From NCBI GenBank assembly GCA_030550585.1, contig JAUQPB010000001.1:186001-250000 (forward strand): a DNA stretch of 64,000 nt, given 5' to 3'. Shown in pieces: positions 12,077-64,000 of this stretch. Position 1 is the first letter of the stretch. The number at the start of each line of letters is the position of its first letter. Both the position numbers and the translations under genes were made by a program. This DNA comes from Thermoproteota archaeon (lineage in GTDB: Archaea > Thermoproteota > Thermoprotei_A > Sulfolobales > Ignisphaeraceae). A model generated the notes under the pieces. That model worked only from the letters and a program-made list of their open reading frames with translations. It was not told the origin of the DNA and ran no database searches.

Positions 12077-13384
12077 TTGAGCTCAAATAATAGGGGATCA
12101 TCTAGAATACCAGGTTTTTATAACCTCTCCCTAGATGAGAGACTAAATATTGTTGCCAATTGGGCTGGTTTAACTAAAGATGAAATCGATTTACTGAGAA
12201 ATTTTGGAAATCTCGGAGCTAAACTAGCCGATGCTATGATAGAAAATGTTGTAGGTGCAATGTCGTATCCTTTTGCTATCGCCCCCAACTTTAGGATCAA
12301 TGGAAAGGACTATCTGATTCCAATGGTTATCGAAGAGCCAAGCGTTGTTGCAGCAGCAAGCAACGCTGCCAAAATGCTTCGAGAGGCCAATGATGGTGAT
12401 GGTATAAGGGCTCTCTCTGACAAACAGATGATGATAGGACAGATACATCTAATGAAAGTTCCATCGCCACGCTTTGTAGCAATGGAGATTATGCGAAGAA
12501 AAGATGAGATACTTGAACTTGCCAATTCCACTAACAAAACTCTTGTTAGTATCGGTGGAGGTGCTAAGGATGTTAGTGTAAGGGTCATCGAAACTAGGAG
12601 GGGGCCTGTAGTTGTCGTCCACCTACTGGTTGATGTAATTGATGCTATGGGTGCTAATACCGTTAATACAATGGCTGAAGCTGTGGCACCATATCTCGAA
12701 AAACTCACAGGTGGAGAGGCAAGATTGAGAATAGTGTCTAACTACGCAATTTACAGGCTTGCAAGGGCATGGGTAAGAATAGACGTGGACAAAATCGGTG
12801 GAAGAGAAGTTGCAGAGAAAATAGTTGATGCAAGTGCTATTGCTGAGGCAGACGTTTTCAGGGCTGTAACACATAACAAAGGGATAATGAATGGTATAAT
12901 AGCTGTTGCTCTTGCAACAGCACAGGATCACAGAGCAATTGAAGCTGGTGTACACGCATATGCCGCAAGAGATGGTGCGTATAAACCTCTTAGCATATGG
13001 GACATAGATTCCCAAGGTTATTTAGTAGGCGTGTTAGAAATACCCTTACAAGTTGGCACAATAGGCGGTTCTGTGAAAACCCATCCAATAGCTCAAATAG
13101 CTCTGAAGATCCTTGGAATTAAATCAGCAAAAGAGTTGGCAGAAATCATGGCAGCTGTTGGCTTGGCACAGAACTTTGCAGCTCTCAGAGCACTTGTTAC
13201 TACAGGTATTCAGGCAGGGCATATGAAGCTCCATGCCAGGAATTTAGCCATTGCTGCAGGAGCTCAAGGAGATCTCATAGAGCTTGTAGCAGAGGAGATG
13301 ATAAGAGAAGGTAAGATAACATTCGATAAAGCAAAAGAGCTTGTTGAGAAATATAGAAGCTTGAGATCTGGCACAAACATTTAG
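12077..13384 (+). CDS. hmgA: HMG-CoA reductase, class II
   Basis: It reduces HMG-CoA to mevalonate, the committed step toward archaeal isoprenoid lipids. The sequence follows the class II (Pseudomonas mevalonii-type) pattern from end to end: MIENVVG, EEPSVVAAAS with the catalytic Glu near 87, DAMGANTVNTMAEA, THNKGIMNG with Lys268, Asp284, and GHMKLHARN with His382. These positions match Lys267, Asp283 and His381 of the Pseudomonas enzyme almost exactly (from memory). The gene starts with TTG, with GGTGA 7 bp ahead. Most crenarchaea I know have class I instead. Mevalonate kinase is at 50377-51399. Confidence 0.93.
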   Translation: MSSNNRGSSRIPGFYNLSLDERLNIVANWAGLTKDEIDLLRNFGNLGAKLADAMIENVVGAMSYPFAIAPNFRINGKDYLIPMVIEEPSVVAAASNAAKMLREANDGDGIRALSDKQMMIGQIHLMKVPSPRFVAMEIMRRKDEILELANSTNKTLVSIGGGAKDVSVRVIETRRGPVVVVHLLVDVIDAMGANTVNTMAEAVAPYLEKLTGGEARLRIVSNYAIYRLARAWVRIDVDKIGGREVAEKIVDASAIAEADVFRAVTHNKGIMNGIIAVALATAQDHRAIEAGVHAYAARDGAYKPLSIWDIDSQGYLVGVLEIPLQVGTIGGSVKTHPIAQIALKILGIKSAKELAEIMAAVGLAQNFAALRALVTTGIQAGHMKLHARNLAIAAGAQGDLIELVAEEMIREGKITFDKAKELVEKYRSLRSGTNI

Positions 13385-56796: not shown

Positions 56797-56874
56797 GGGC
56801 CCGTAGCCCAGCCAGGACAGGGCGCCGGCCTCCGGAGCCGGAGGTCCCGGGTTCAAATCCCGGCGGGCCCGCCA
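56797..56874 (+). tRNA. tRNA-Arg(CCG), integration target
   Basis: Acceptor GGGCCCG / CGGGCCC, anticodon stem CCGGC / GCCGG with loop CTCCGGA (anticodon CCG), T-arm CCGGG TTCAAAT CCCGG, encoded CCA. No intron. It sits exactly at the border between the chromosome and the integrase-bearing element; its 3' half is therefore the likely attL core. Confidence 0.95.
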
Positions 56875-56928
56875 GTTTTTAATCACTCAAGTAAAAAAGC
56901 TTATTAACTCTCCTAATGTTTCAGTTTC

Positions 56929-58236
56929 ATGGTGCAGGCTGAAACATCAGGCGTGATAGCTTTGAGTGATGGTAGTTCTGAATGGTGGAATAGGATAAAT
57001 GTCTCAAAGATTGATGAAGACTCACGCTACAAGATTCTCTCCTATTTAGTCGAGAAATATGGGAGGAAGAAGGTAATGGAGGAAGCAGGTATTAGCCGTG
57101 TGACGCTGTGGAGATTGCTAAACCGGGTATCCCCGGTAGACCCAGAGTACATAGTCCCACTCCTCAAGCTCCTCACGCAGACAGAGTTTGAGAGTTTAGT
57201 ATCGGCGAAGAACAGACTCAGATCCCTCGGCATAATGAGAGACGATGGAACTGTAGACTACAGTCTGGTCTTGGAAATACTATCCATAGCTAGGAGCGAT
57301 GAATATCTTAAGAACGCTGTACTGAGGTTTGTCGTCCAAGAGTTTAAGGAAGATATTAGGAAAATGCTCGGGATAAGCTTCACAGGTATAAAGCTTGAGT
57401 GGAGTGAAGACTTCGAAAACTTTCTTGTGGAACGTAAGAAGCGTAGAAAGGTGAGAGACCCAGAGACCGTAAAGTACTACAGAAACCTCTTCAAGAGATA
57501 CCTAGAAGGAAAAGAACTCTCCGAAGAACTAATAGACTACATTGTTAGACACCAGAACAAATGGCTTAGGAACGTGTTCAGACACTACGTACAGTACCTA
57601 TACCATAAGAGAAGAATTCCCCCAGAAACCTTCGGCTGGATAATGGAGGTAGTCCCCTCAAGAGGGTATAGACTAGACGTAAGACCCTACCAGATCTCCA
57701 TAGAAGATGTTAGGAAGACCCTAGAGTTCTTGAAGGAGAACCACAAGACATACTACACAGTATACAGAGCAATGCTTGAGTCTGGAGCAAGGTTCGAACA
57801 CGTACTGGAGATGATAAGGACGTGGAACCCTAGAGAAACTGTAGTTATAGAGTCCATAGACCTAGAGGTGGAGAGGTTAGTGTGCTTCGATAGGTTCTGC
57901 AGGTACTACCTAGGTCTCAGAGGTCACCAGAAACCGTGTGAATGGATATACATGTCTAGAGGTACTATAGAGCTCTTGAAAACACTAGCACCCAAAGATA
58001 TTGATAGGAATAGTGTTAGAAGGTATGCCAGGAGGTATAGCCTAACCCTGCCGAAGATGTTTAGGAAAGTCTCATGGAGGATAATGGTTCAGACTATGCC
58101 TAGGGAGGTAGCGAGGTTTATCCAGAGCAGGTTCGGAGAACTAAGGGTAAGTGAGGCGAGGTACGAAGACCTCCTATCAGAGGCAGATGAACACTACCCA
58201 AAATACCTAGAAAAATTGGGAGAAGCTCAATTTTAG
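56929..58236 (+). CDS. int: Archaeal tyrosine integrase (Phage_integr_3 type) with N-terminal helix-turn-helix
   Basis: A site-specific recombinase of the archaeal virus/plasmid type. Catalytic region: Arg288 in SGARFEHVLEM, box II around RKVSWRIM (Arg384), Arg401 in PREVARFIQSR and the nucleophile Tyr412 in SEARYEDLLSEADEHYPKY; that ending closely matches archaeal integrases (ARHYMALLRQADEFYP, from memory). Residues 30-65 form an added helix-turn-helix (MEEAGISRVTLWRLL). The gene is whole and 54 bp from the tRNA, so it was not split on integration as in SSV viruses. Confidence 0.88.
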   Translation: MVQAETSGVIALSDGSSEWWNRINVSKIDEDSRYKILSYLVEKYGRKKVMEEAGISRVTLWRLLNRVSPVDPEYIVPLLKLLTQTEFESLVSAKNRLRSLGIMRDDGTVDYSLVLEILSIARSDEYLKNAVLRFVVQEFKEDIRKMLGISFTGIKLEWSEDFENFLVERKKRRKVRDPETVKYYRNLFKRYLEGKELSEELIDYIVRHQNKWLRNVFRHYVQYLYHKRRIPPETFGWIMEVVPSRGYRLDVRPYQISIEDVRKTLEFLKENHKTYYTVYRAMLESGARFEHVLEMIRTWNPRETVVIESIDLEVERLVCFDRFCRYYLGLRGHQKPCEWIYMSRGTIELLKTLAPKDIDRNSVRRYARRYSLTLPKMFRKVSWRIMVQTMPREVARFIQSRFGELRVSEARYEDLLSEADEHYPKYLEKLGEAQF

Positions 58237-58470: not shown

Positions 58471-59115
58471 TCATAGGTCGCAGATAGACCCCTTCACAAC
58501 CACCAAAAGAAAACTCTTAATCTCTTCCAATCCATTGATGAGGTAAATACTAACACGAGACTTATCCTCCATTTGTAGAGCTAGTAGCGCTGGAAGAATA
58601 TACATGTCCAGAGAAGTAAATACACCATCCCCCTCAAGATATACCAACCCGGCAAGATTACCAGGAAACCACGGAGCAGACCACCGATACACCCCCAAAT
58701 CCACCCTAGTATCCAACTTTCTACCAAACGAGATAAGATCATCCACAGAATACTTCCATAACACACCACCAACCTCCCCCCTAAGATATCCGTACTCCAA
58801 CACGTCCTCAACCCTACCAACCTCCCTCACCCTCCTAACCACAACCTCGGGAATCTTCTGAACCATTATTCTCTTAGGAGAGAGATAATAACAAAAAACC
58901 GGATCGCAACTTGGAAACTGAGGAAGAACCCTAACCCCATCCAAAGAAAGGAATCTGGATGGGACGTACACCACCTCCCAACCATTAAAAACACGATAAA
59001 GAATTACATAGGTAGACAGAAAACCACCATGACCAAAGTACACATACGGAAACCACACCCCCCTGACCTCCCTAACCACCACACCCACCCACACCAACCC
59101 TATATACACCGACAA
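58471..59115 (-). CDS. Element protein of unknown function
   Basis: The 214 residues match nothing I know. It is rich in Val, Tyr and Trp, with strands such as VWFPYVYFGHGG and WEVVYVPSRFLS, and seems all-beta or alpha/beta; there is no signal peptide or P-loop. The start of the frame lies 8 bp downstream, on its own strand, of the first iteron of the array at 59123-59478, so that array occupies its promoter region. Expression may be controlled by an iteron-binding protein. The IS-like remnant follows its stop. Confidence 0.6.
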   Translation of the reverse strand: MSVYIGLVWVGVVVREVRGVWFPYVYFGHGGFLSTYVILYRVFNGWEVVYVPSRFLSLDGVRVLPQFPSCDPVFCYYLSPKRIMVQKIPEVVVRRVREVGRVEDVLEYGYLRGEVGGVLWKYSVDDLISFGRKLDTRVDLGVYRWSAPWFPGNLAGLVYLEGDGVFTSLDMYILPALLALQMEDKSRVSIYLINGLEEIKSFLLVVVKGSICDL

Positions 59116-59122
59116 CTACTGC

Positions 59123-59478
59123 CATGCCGTTATGAGATCCCCCGACATACTGTTATGAGACCCACATCACCCGCCACATCACCCGCCACGGGGCGGCTCA
59201 TGATTACATTTATTATTATGATCAAATAGTATATGTATAGCACACCGTTATGACACCCACAGTTTTCCCACCATCGATTCTTGATCAGGAAATAATTAAA
59301 ATAGTTGAAAACAGACAATACCATGCCGTTATGAGACCCCTAGATATATATACACAATAACAATATTTAGTGAATACTGACATGCCCTTATGAGACCTAC
59401 TGTCATCCGCTTACGAGACCCTACTGATGAACCATTGCCATGCCGTTATGAGACCTTTTGACATACAGTTATGAGACC
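59123..59478. repeat. Iteron array, eight copies of a 17-bp repeat
   Basis: Eight same-direction copies of CATGCCGTTATGAGACC or close variants: 59123-59139, 59146-59162, 59241-59257, 59322-59338, 59381-59397, 59404-59420, 59439-59455, 59462-59478. Three pairs (1-2, 5-6, 7-8) repeat at exactly 23 bp, about two helix turns. In each pair the first copy reads CATGCC and the second is weaker. AT-rich stretches lie between (59203-59240, 59286-59320, 59342-59375). A tandem ACATCACCCGCC repeat and hairpin CCGCC-4nt-GGCGG are at 59164-59196. This is the build of an iteron-type replication origin or a partition/operator site. Confidence 0.85.
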
Positions 59479-60294
59479 CTAGCGATGAGATACTACACCA
59501 CCCTCCACAACTTCATCCCCGAGAAAACCATACCTCTGATGAGGAACATAGCTATTGAGAGAACTGAACATATCCCTCATCGTGATGAAGGGAATATTGG
59601 AAACAGTAATCACGGTAATCCTCCCATTCCTATCACATCGAACAATAAATCTATCAGATAACTGACTCCAAGGAAAACGGAGAACCCCACTCTTATCGAT
59701 TTCGTAAAGCTTCATCCCGAGCTGATTACCAACAACCTGGAGTATGAGAACCCCACATACACTATAGTTCATGGACTGAAGAATATTTTCAAGAGATCTA
59801 ACTGTAACCCATCCATTCTTTAATGTCTTCAACCTCATCAACAACCTTTCGGGTATTGTTCCATTCTTACCCGTCAACCTTTTAAGATTCTCTACATCGT
59901 AAATATACGATATCTTATCAACATCTTTAGATTTTATAACAACCCTAGTATTCCCTCCACACTTCCTAACTACTATGAATTTCCTCTTTCTCATATCTCT
60001 ATGGAGATACTCTAGCAGATCCCTAGAAACAAGAACATCAATTATCCTGAAACCGCTAAGAACAATACCCGGATACCTATAGTAGACACCTCTCCCAGTC
60101 CTTATCTCCCGTCCAGAACCATACACCTCAAAATACACAAGATTGCGCAATTCTCTACTATAGCTTTCACCTAAATTACTAACAATAACATTACTAGTAC
60201 TAACACTTTTACTAAAACTTAAATTTCCACTACTAACACTAGTAATTCGGTTAGCAGAACTCTTAGCCCAGCCCTTTAACTTCCTCCTCCCCAA
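59479..60294 (-). CDS. Element protein of unknown function, flanking the iterons
   Basis: No family is recognised for these 271 residues. The first ~45 are basic and Ser-rich, probably unstructured (SSGNLSFSKSVSTSNVIVS). A middle part (LLEYLHRDMRKRKFIVVRK) and a segment TIPERLLMRLKTLKNGWVTVRSLENILQ, read as ERLLMRLK and WVTVRSLENIL, could form a helix-turn-helix. The stop codon directly abuts the last iteron. That place makes it a candidate for the iteron-binding or replication protein, but there is no Rep motif to prove it. Confidence 0.6.
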   Translation of the reverse strand: MGRRKLKGWAKSSANRITSVSSGNLSFSKSVSTSNVIVSNLGESYSRELRNLVYFEVYGSGREIRTGRGVYYRYPGIVLSGFRIIDVLVSRDLLEYLHRDMRKRKFIVVRKCGGNTRVVIKSKDVDKISYIYDVENLKRLTGKNGTIPERLLMRLKTLKNGWVTVRSLENILQSMNYSVCGVLILQVVGNQLGMKLYEIDKSGVLRFPWSQLSDRFIVRCDRNGRITVITVSNIPFITMRDMFSSLNSYVPHQRYGFLGDEVVEGGVVSHR

Positions 60295-60334: not shown

Positions 60335-60535
60335 TTAGCCGTGTCTACCCTCAACTACTTGTATGTATATCCTTACCTTCAAGCCTCTGCGCTTTATTTC
60401 CTCCCAAACGGCGTTGAAGTCTCTCGGTAGGTAGATTATCCATCGGTCCCTACCTAGCTTCACTACCTCCCGAGCTGGAACGTATATGTCCCTTGGAAGT
60501 ATATGCAGGCGTGCTTCTTCAGCCATCGACTTCAC
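60335..60535 (-). CDS. Small basic element protein, unknown
   Basis: The 66 residues contain VPAREVVKLGRDRWIIYLP, then WEEIKRRGLKVRIYIQVV, a beta-beta-helix-beta pattern that resembles small DNA-binding or antitoxin-like proteins of archaeal plasmids. I cannot assign a family. It starts 72 bp from the divergent winged-helix gene and precedes the 271-aa gene on the same strand, so it may be its operon partner or a regulator. Confidence 0.55.
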   Translation of the reverse strand: MKSMAEEARLHILPRDIYVPAREVVKLGRDRWIIYLPRDFNAVWEEIKRRGLKVRIYIQVVEGRHG

Positions 60536-63116: not shown

Positions 63117-63312
63117 ATGTCCGTTCTGCGGATTTGAATCGAGCCTGGAGGATTTCAAGAAGCTAAGAGAACCCTGGAGATTCAGGTTCTACGAGGTTAA
63201 AATGCTGGAGTGTCCTAAGTGTAAAGGTGTGTTCAACTACTACGAGGGTTTTTCACCAAGAGGTAAGCGTTCCTCGTTCATGATTAAAATGAGACCGCGG
63301 GCTAGAGCATGA
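63109..63312 (+). CDS. Small zinc-finger protein of the restriction operon
   Basis: Starting at the ATG 63109, the 67 residues carry CPFCGF near the N-terminus and CPKCKG about 36 residues later, a zinc ribbon, and end in a very basic tail (KMRPRARA). It overlaps the AbrB gene by 8 bp and the nuclease gene by 4 bp (ATGA). Such zinc-ribbon proteins occur beside DNA-modification genes in archaeal elements, but the role is unknown. Confidence 0.75.
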   Translation: MVRCPFCGFESSLEDFKKLREPWRFRFYEVKMLECPKCKGVFNYYEGFSPRGKRSSFMIKMRPRARA

Positions 63313-64000
63313 GTAGTAGAATTCCTGTGCCTCAAATAGATATAGATGATGTAGTGAACTGCTTTAAGCAGAGTGTTAGAACAGCTAGAAATGAGGAGGA
63401 GGTTAGAGCAAGGGTTTCAGTAAGGTGCATTGAGGAGAAGATACTGAAGCCCCTGGGTATAACCCAGTACGGTCACTACGAATACACCCTTGTCTCGGGT
63501 GCTAGGGTAGACGCGCTGTACGGTCACGTGATAGTTGAGTACAAGGCTCCCGGTAAGCTCTCATCAGCATCCGACATAGCTAAAGCTAAGGAGCAAGTAA
63601 TTAGATACATCACTAAGGAGGCACCCAGTAAAGCTGAGTGGGATAGGTACCTGGGAGTCATAATAAGCGATAGAATAGCCTTCGTGAGGTACTATAAGCC
63701 CCAGGATACATGGATACTCAGAGGACCCTACGAGATCACCAGGGAAAGCGTTGTTAAGCTCATAGAGGCAATCAGAGGACTAAGGAGAAAAGCTCTCAAA
63801 GTAGACCCCCTACTCACCGACTTCGGTCCTCAGTCAGTAATAGCTAGAAGAGCCGTGAACACTCTCTATAGGAAGTTGCTGAACAGTAAAAACCCTAGAG
63901 CCAGGATGCTCTTCGAGGACTGGATGAGGCTCTTCAAGCAAGCAACTGGTTACGACCCCGAGAAACTCAAAGAGCTTCGTCAACTAGCCTCGGAGTACGG
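63309..64000 (+). CDS. PD-(D/E)XK nuclease, probably restriction-modification enzyme (cut by window end)
   Basis: The first 230 residues are present. After IEEKILKPLG comes RVDALYGHVIVEYKAPGKL, with D..E-Y-K forming the nuclease site, and then YLGVIISDRIAFVRYY. From about 170 on a helical stretch (RRAVNTLYRKLL, ARMLFEDWMRLFKQATG) leads out of the window; this layout matches the N-terminus of single-chain restriction-methyltransferase enzymes (type IIG/Eco57I-like) and some type I subunits. The methylase domain itself is not in view, so the class is provisional. Confidence 0.7.
   Translation, partial: MSSRIPVPQIDIDDVVNCFKQSVRTARNEEEVRARVSVRCIEEKILKPLGITQYGHYEYTLVSGARVDALYGHVIVEYKAPGKLSSASDIAKAKEQVIRYITKEAPSKAEWDRYLGVIISDRIAFVRYYKPQDTWILRGPYEITRESVVKLIEAIRGLRRKALKVDPLLTDFGPQSVIARRAVNTLYRKLLNSKNPRARMLFEDWMRLFKQATGYDPEKLKELRQLASEY

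Follow-up and report, generated by a model that had tools for sequence, protein, structure and literature searches.

What does an array of eight short, same-direction repeats do inside a mobile element of an archaeal chromosome? Such an array lies in the window, by which is meant the whole 64,000-nucleotide stretch of DNA that was analyzed (C4:186001-250000, from a genome of 1.76 Mb in seven contigs), and an initial annotation had proposed it as the replication origin or partition site of an integrated element. Few genetic tools are available for hyperthermophilic archaea. Beyond the pRN and rolling-circle groups, the start of replication is unexplained for most archaeal plasmids (PMC4234260; PMC4390865). 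The locus provides a compact and testable case: it combines the array with a candidate initiator or two, a natural variant that lacks one 23-bp unit, and a distant relative that shares the core. Our assessment leans, by a little more than even, toward the array being an iteron-type replication origin of a 17.1-kb plasmid-like element that integrates into a tRNA gene, with the product of the adjacent 271-aa gene as its most likely initiator. If this is true, the known initiators would be joined by a new family, and the locus could supply compatible vectors for hyperthermophilic archaea.

The Repeat Array

Seven plus-strand copies with at most three mismatches to the consensus CATGCCGTTATGAGACC start at positions 59123, 59146, 59241, 59322, 59381, 59439, and 59462, whereas dinucleotide shuffles of the window contain a mean of 0.08 such matches and never seven. 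An eighth copy, CATCCGCTTACGAGACC at 59404, has four mismatches but is in register and completes the second 23-bp pair (Table 1). The eight same-direction 17-bp repeats of the initial annotation are therefore real and exactly placed, and its three pairs at exactly 23 bp are borne out by the start-to-start distances (23, 95, 81, 59, 23, 35, and 23). Its description of the array as phased holds inside the pairs, in which 23 bp amounts to approximately 2.2 helical turns, but is overstated for the other distances, which have no common period. The array fills the gap between the 271-aa and 214-aa genes. Its repeats are confined to this one locus, and their core is not spread over the genome: of nine TTATGAGACC occurrences genome-wide, the array accounts for five. 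The pattern of 23-bp pairs, with two mismatches allowed, is present in 2 of the 229 genomes of the class.

Table 1. Positions in the window of the array, its parts, and the neighboring features of the element.
Feature	Position	Strand	Remarks
tRNA-Arg(CCG), integration target	56797..56874	+	3' part 56827-56874 = attL
Tyrosine recombinase gene	56929..58236	+	intact, 435 aa, archaeal; PF16795; N-terminal HTH-like stretch
214-aa-ORF gene	58471..59079	-	GTG start at 59079 probable, ~202 aa
TATA-box-like sequence	59101..59106	-	TATATA (TTTATA in G013), ~22-27 nt upstream of the GTG start
Eight-copy iteron array	59123..59478	+	consensus CATGCCGTTATGAGACC(C); ends just before the 271-aa stop codon
Iteron pair 1	59123..59162	+	starts 59123 and 59146; 23 bp apart
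Hairpin CCGCC-ACGG-GGCGG	59182..59195		5-bp stem; weak, loosely conserved
Candidate unwinding element	59200..59239		most AT-rich 40 bp of the whole element, 85%
Single iteron 3	59241..59257	+	CACACCGTTATGACACC; its GTTATGACACCCACAGTTTT context is identical in G013
Single iteron 4	59322..59338	+	exact consensus
Second AT-rich candidate, inside the array	59344..59383		80%
Iteron pair 2	59381..59420	+	starts 59381 and 59404; 23 bp apart
Iteron pair 3	59439..59478	+	starts 59439 and 59462; 23 bp apart; one copy here in G013 (exact 23-bp difference)
271-aa gene, candidate initiator/iteron-binding protein	59479..60294	-	no known domain
66-aa gene	60335..60535	-	upstream of the 271-aa gene

The AT-rich gaps between the copies are also real. 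Three of the seven most AT-rich 40-mers of the element fall in the array, including the highest-ranking one, and in its composition this core is what would be expected of an unwinding element located beside repeats. The GC hairpin that had been cited along with these gaps does exist, but it is weak (-6.1 kcal/mol), its stem is 4 bp in the related array of the congeneric species G013, and it adds little to the case for an origin. It is abutted by a perfect 12-bp tandem duplication inside the array (CCACATCACCCG, 59162-59185) that is absent from G013. The cumulative GC skew reaches its minimum at approximately 60536, 1 kb from the array, where gene directions diverge; being confounded by transcription, it cannot decide the position of an origin. 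Scans of the sequence for sigma-70 promoters and terminators gave background levels only.

The Host Element

The array sits in an integrated mobile element, as indicated by a direct repeat of the 3' part of tRNA-Arg at both ends and by the recombinase and cargo genes in between. The right border, attR, is a 48-bp partial copy of tRNA-Arg(CCG) that is 94% identical and lies beyond the window (C4:259943-259990), which gives the element a length of 17,116 bp. An empty integration site was sought in a close relative and not found: in another genome, G044, the tRNA-Arg locus (L049 1-320) has a left flank that is 99% identical up to the end of the tRNA and a right flank that is unmatched; the DNA beyond this tRNA matches neither the element nor its right flank and contains HEPN/MNT-like gene pairs.

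In addition to the tyrosine recombinase, which shares 48% identity with the integrase encoded in the element of genome G063, the element has genes for 214-aa, 271-aa, 66-aa, 267-aa, and 422-aa products, as well as a MazE/AbrB-like and a zinc-ribbon-like gene. The rest of its cargo consists of a type IIG restriction-modification enzyme, a lone BrxL, and an Ig-like surface protein. The type IIG enzyme (1221 aa) and, directly after it, the BrxL ATPase extend from window positions 63309-64000 to position 12412 of locus L009, and no other BREX genes are found in the 17.1-kb element. The predicted surface protein (1283 aa), at the right end of the element (L009 13346-17197), combines Ig-like and carboxypeptidase-regulatory-like domains with a C-terminal membrane segment.

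An inverted pair, TGTTTCA-N16-TGAAACA, is located just inside both ends of the element, at L009 917-946 (window 56917-56946) and at L009 17896-17925 (beyond the window), and a near-identical pair occurs at one end of the G013 element (L019 1088-1118). Near the element ends lie 6 of the 7 sites of this type counted in L009, and the left pair overlaps the start of the integrase gene. These pairs are candidate integrase arm or excision-control sites.

Conservation in a Congeneric Species

The relatives discussed here and below (congeneric, other genus, other family) are given by their kinship ranks in the genome collection searched. The congeneric G013 keeps the order of 271-aa homologue, array (here with seven copies), and 214-aa homologue, in an element of approximately 6.8 kb located between tRNA-Ser(TGA) and its partial copy. 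According to blastn, the two elements share, outside this block of gene, array, and gene, only part of the integrase gene. That gene is broken in G013, and this copy of the element may no longer be mobile. The two genes and the array between them move as one unit. Within the non-coding stretch, 112 of 119 iteron positions (94%) are identical in the two species, compared with 156 of 204 spacer positions (76%; Fisher p = 2.5e-5), and the repeats therefore appear to be under selection. The copy number of the array differs between them by exactly one 23-bp unit.

Both flanking genes are under purifying selection. The 271-aa protein is 89% identical to its G013 homologue (dN 0.055, dS 0.146) and the 214-aa product 77% (dN 0.156, dS 0.50), with dN/dS values of about 0.37 and 0.31, respectively. 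Translation of the 214-aa ORF is unlikely to begin at the annotated TTG because the upstream frame is broken by a TAG in the G013 relative; the GTG at 59079 is probably the real start. By archaeal promoter rules, the TATA-like box ahead of it is the probable promoter of a leaderless mRNA. The 66-aa product has small relatives in two other genomes. The one in G013 (L019 1223-1561), a 112-aa protein of two tandem units, is encoded upstream of the 271-aa homologue; the one in G063 (L020 14075-14239), of approximately 55 aa, is encoded beside the integrase gene. Searches with this small family returned no family match.

The 271-aa Protein and Its Distant Homologues

The initial annotation had stated that no known Rep is encoded nearby, and our searches agree: no known replication protein family was matched in the element, nor among the proteins scanned from related elements. 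For the 271-aa protein, no recognized DNA-binding domain was matched, and comparisons with Pfam, PHROGs, NCBIfam, and PDB sequences revealed no known iteron Rep family; searching the PDB sequences with profiles likewise gave no match. AlphaFold2 models of the 271-aa and 214-aa proteins were unusable (pLDDT 38 and 31, respectively). Neither the array nor the neighboring proteins had a match among PLSDB plasmids, INPHARED phages, or IMG/VR.

A profile search identified the 271-aa family in 6 of the 229 genomes of the class, and its extension to the phylum (398 genomes) yielded no further members. A match in G015 was rejected as an unrelated, coiled-coil-like protein that was lost when the profile was used. 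Its members fall into four lineages, all with a related integrase next to them: G000, G013, G063, and G091/G067, the last of which includes a truncated copy in G043. The homologues in G063 and G091/G067 are 33-35% identical to the source protein, and BLAST found the integrase and the 271-aa family to be the only proteins common to all four element lineages.

In G063, which belongs to another family, the non-coding 1 kb directly downstream of the 271-aa homologue holds four TTATGAGAC-like sites, compared with 0.19 expected, a number reached in none of 300 shuffles; 1-kb windows slid along the 20-kb G063 locus without overlapping this stretch contain at most two. Permuted motifs reached the three GTTATGAGAC sites observed in the stretch in 1 of 2000 trials; with every 1-kb window of the locus considered, 11 of 2000 trials reached three. 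The enrichment was tested after the region had been noticed, and we regard it as supportive, not conclusive. The G063 repeat family itself, AAGGCAGYTAYGAGRC, has six copies (L020 9501-9750), divided two to four between the strands; the G063 repeats face both ways and are more diverged. An additional site resembling this family, AGTCTACTTATGAGACTA, is located at L020 7253, approximately 2.2 kb from the cluster. De novo repeat searches with 12-mers in the G063 and G091 elements gave nothing above shuffles, and the G063 repeats emerged only with shorter seeds and motif-based tests.

In the G091/G067 element, de novo and motif searches detected no repeats even though a 271-aa homologue is present. 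A 5.5-kb stretch that carries the integrase and this homologue is 98.5% identical in these two genera (L033 8300-13803 and L021 529-6033), which suggests that this element moved recently; its other attachment site was not found.

Weighing the Possible Functions

Several observations favor a replication origin, as initially proposed: the array is conserved in two different elements, its repeats seem to be selected, the most meltable DNA lies inside it, and its core recurs beside a distant 271-aa homologue. The homologous G091/G067 element, with no detectable repeats, weighs against it, as do the opposed orientations and greater divergence of the G063 repeats and the failure to match a DNA-binding domain in the 271-aa protein. 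The proximity of the 214-aa promoter to iteron 1, together with a TATA-like box and a leaderless start that are conserved in both species, would also suit an operator array through which an element-encoded regulator (the 271-aa, 66-aa, 267-aa, or 422-aa product) controls the 214-aa gene, and the 422-aa protein does have wing-helix-like matches. However, eight non-palindromic copies spread over 356 bp, as far as 380 bp from the start and separated by melting-prone gaps, are too much for one promoter. Operators at several promoters had been named as the observation that would speak against an origin, but strong matches in the element occur only in the array, and its other promoters have none. 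In G063, moreover, the repeats are found on the downstream side of both genes rather than at a promoter of the neighboring pair. We consider an operator role unlikely, even as the foremost of the alternatives.

Plasmid partition sites, too, are direct-repeat arrays beside a small gene, and partition without a motor NTPase exists in StbA- and pSK1-Par-type systems. A centromere-like partition or incompatibility site of this kind, bound by a neighboring protein, has in our view a lower probability than an operator. The partition half of the initial proposal is weakened by the scan of proteins from the four elements, in which no ParA, actin-like (ParM), tubulin-like (TubZ), or SegA-type NTPase was found, so the motor beside a centromere that characterizes partition systems of types I-III is missing from these matches. 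In addition, the G013 element (6.8 kb) and the G091 core (approximately 5.5 kb) are small for partition modules, which are uncommon at such sizes, and the elements would then have no replication locus at all. The location of the array in a mobile element, approximately 0.9 kb past where the integrase gene ends, could point to integrase accessory sites for excision control or to an oriT, which we judge very unlikely: the array is 2.2 kb from attL, the inverted pairs at both element ends fit integrase arm sites better, and relaxase or conjugation genes were not matched in the element. It is slightly less probable still that the array is a functionless leftover of repeat expansion. The 12-bp tandem duplication and the exact 23-bp copy difference do show that repeats are gained and lost, but repeat positions are conserved above the spacers, and two elements that otherwise differ have both retained the unit.

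Under the iteron-type origin that we favor, the tyrosine recombinase would excise the element from tRNA-Arg as a circle. The 271-aa protein would bind the 17-bp repeats cooperatively, at the 23-bp pairs and at the single copies between them, and the bound protein would strain the two AT-rich intervals until they open. The host replisome (MCM, primase, and PolB) could then load at the opened DNA and replicate the excised circle, and the number and occupancy of the iterons would set its copy number. A broader proposal is more tentative, and we hold it with somewhat less than even confidence: the 271-aa family may be a new class of initiators, found so far only in one archaeal order, that recognizes the (C/A)GTTATGAGAC core, has co-evolved with its repeats across at least two host families, and drives the replication of tRNA-integrating mini-plasmids.

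Comparison with Known Systems

In archaeal elements that carry tyrosine recombinases, att sites measure 40-50 bp, and the PF16795 families that have been reviewed are suicidal (PMC8371274). The element resembles the SSV and pNOB8 kinds in its PF16795 integrase, its target at a tRNA 3' end, and its att of approximately 48 bp; unlike in the suicidal PF16795 families, its integrase gene stays intact after integration, and the protein is only 27-31% identical to SSV integrases. Plasmid pRN1 relies on a prim-pol/SF3 helicase protein and, in place of iterons, on a 100-nt stem-loop (PMC4234260). The pRN1 family likewise consists of small crenarchaeal replicons whose origin lies on the downstream side of the presumed replication gene; here, only the 5-bp hairpin was found, and no prim-pol/SF3 helicase protein among those scanned.

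The opinion that iteron origins are little described in crenarchaeal elements is only partly right, as Sulfolobus conjugative plasmids have putative origins that contain repeats, with the initiator not identified where RepA is missing (PMC4390865). These plasmids (section B; pTC1, pING1, and pKEF9) are similar to the present case in being crenarchaeal and in carrying their repeats in non-coding DNA on the downstream side of an ORF (PMC4390865). They differ in the sequences of the repeats, which in pTC1 are few and short, and in their conjugation genes, which the element does not have (no Pfam matches to TraG/TrbE-like proteins); their origin motif TCTATACCCCC is at chance level in our sequence and absent from the array.

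In layout, the array resembles the bacterial iteron origins of RK2 (oriV/TrfA), R6K (pi), and P1 (RepA), which combine same-strand repeats of 17 to 22 bp with an AT-rich unwinding element and an initiator encoded by the element (PMC4980987), here a candidate. The iterons of RK2 are 17 bp long, R6K has seven, and RK2, P1, and R6K have five to seven copies (PMC4980987). As in these origins, several same-strand repeats of approximately 17-22 bp occupy a single non-coding locus and are more conserved than the DNA between them. In contrast, the array is arranged in pairs and singles over 356 bp with AT-rich DNA between the copies, and its host machinery is archaeal. The neighboring gene also falls outside the known Rep families, so that the array would work like an iteron origin, with an initiator that would be new. 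By this analogy, we classify it as an iteron-origin-like variant that stands apart from every known replicon family.
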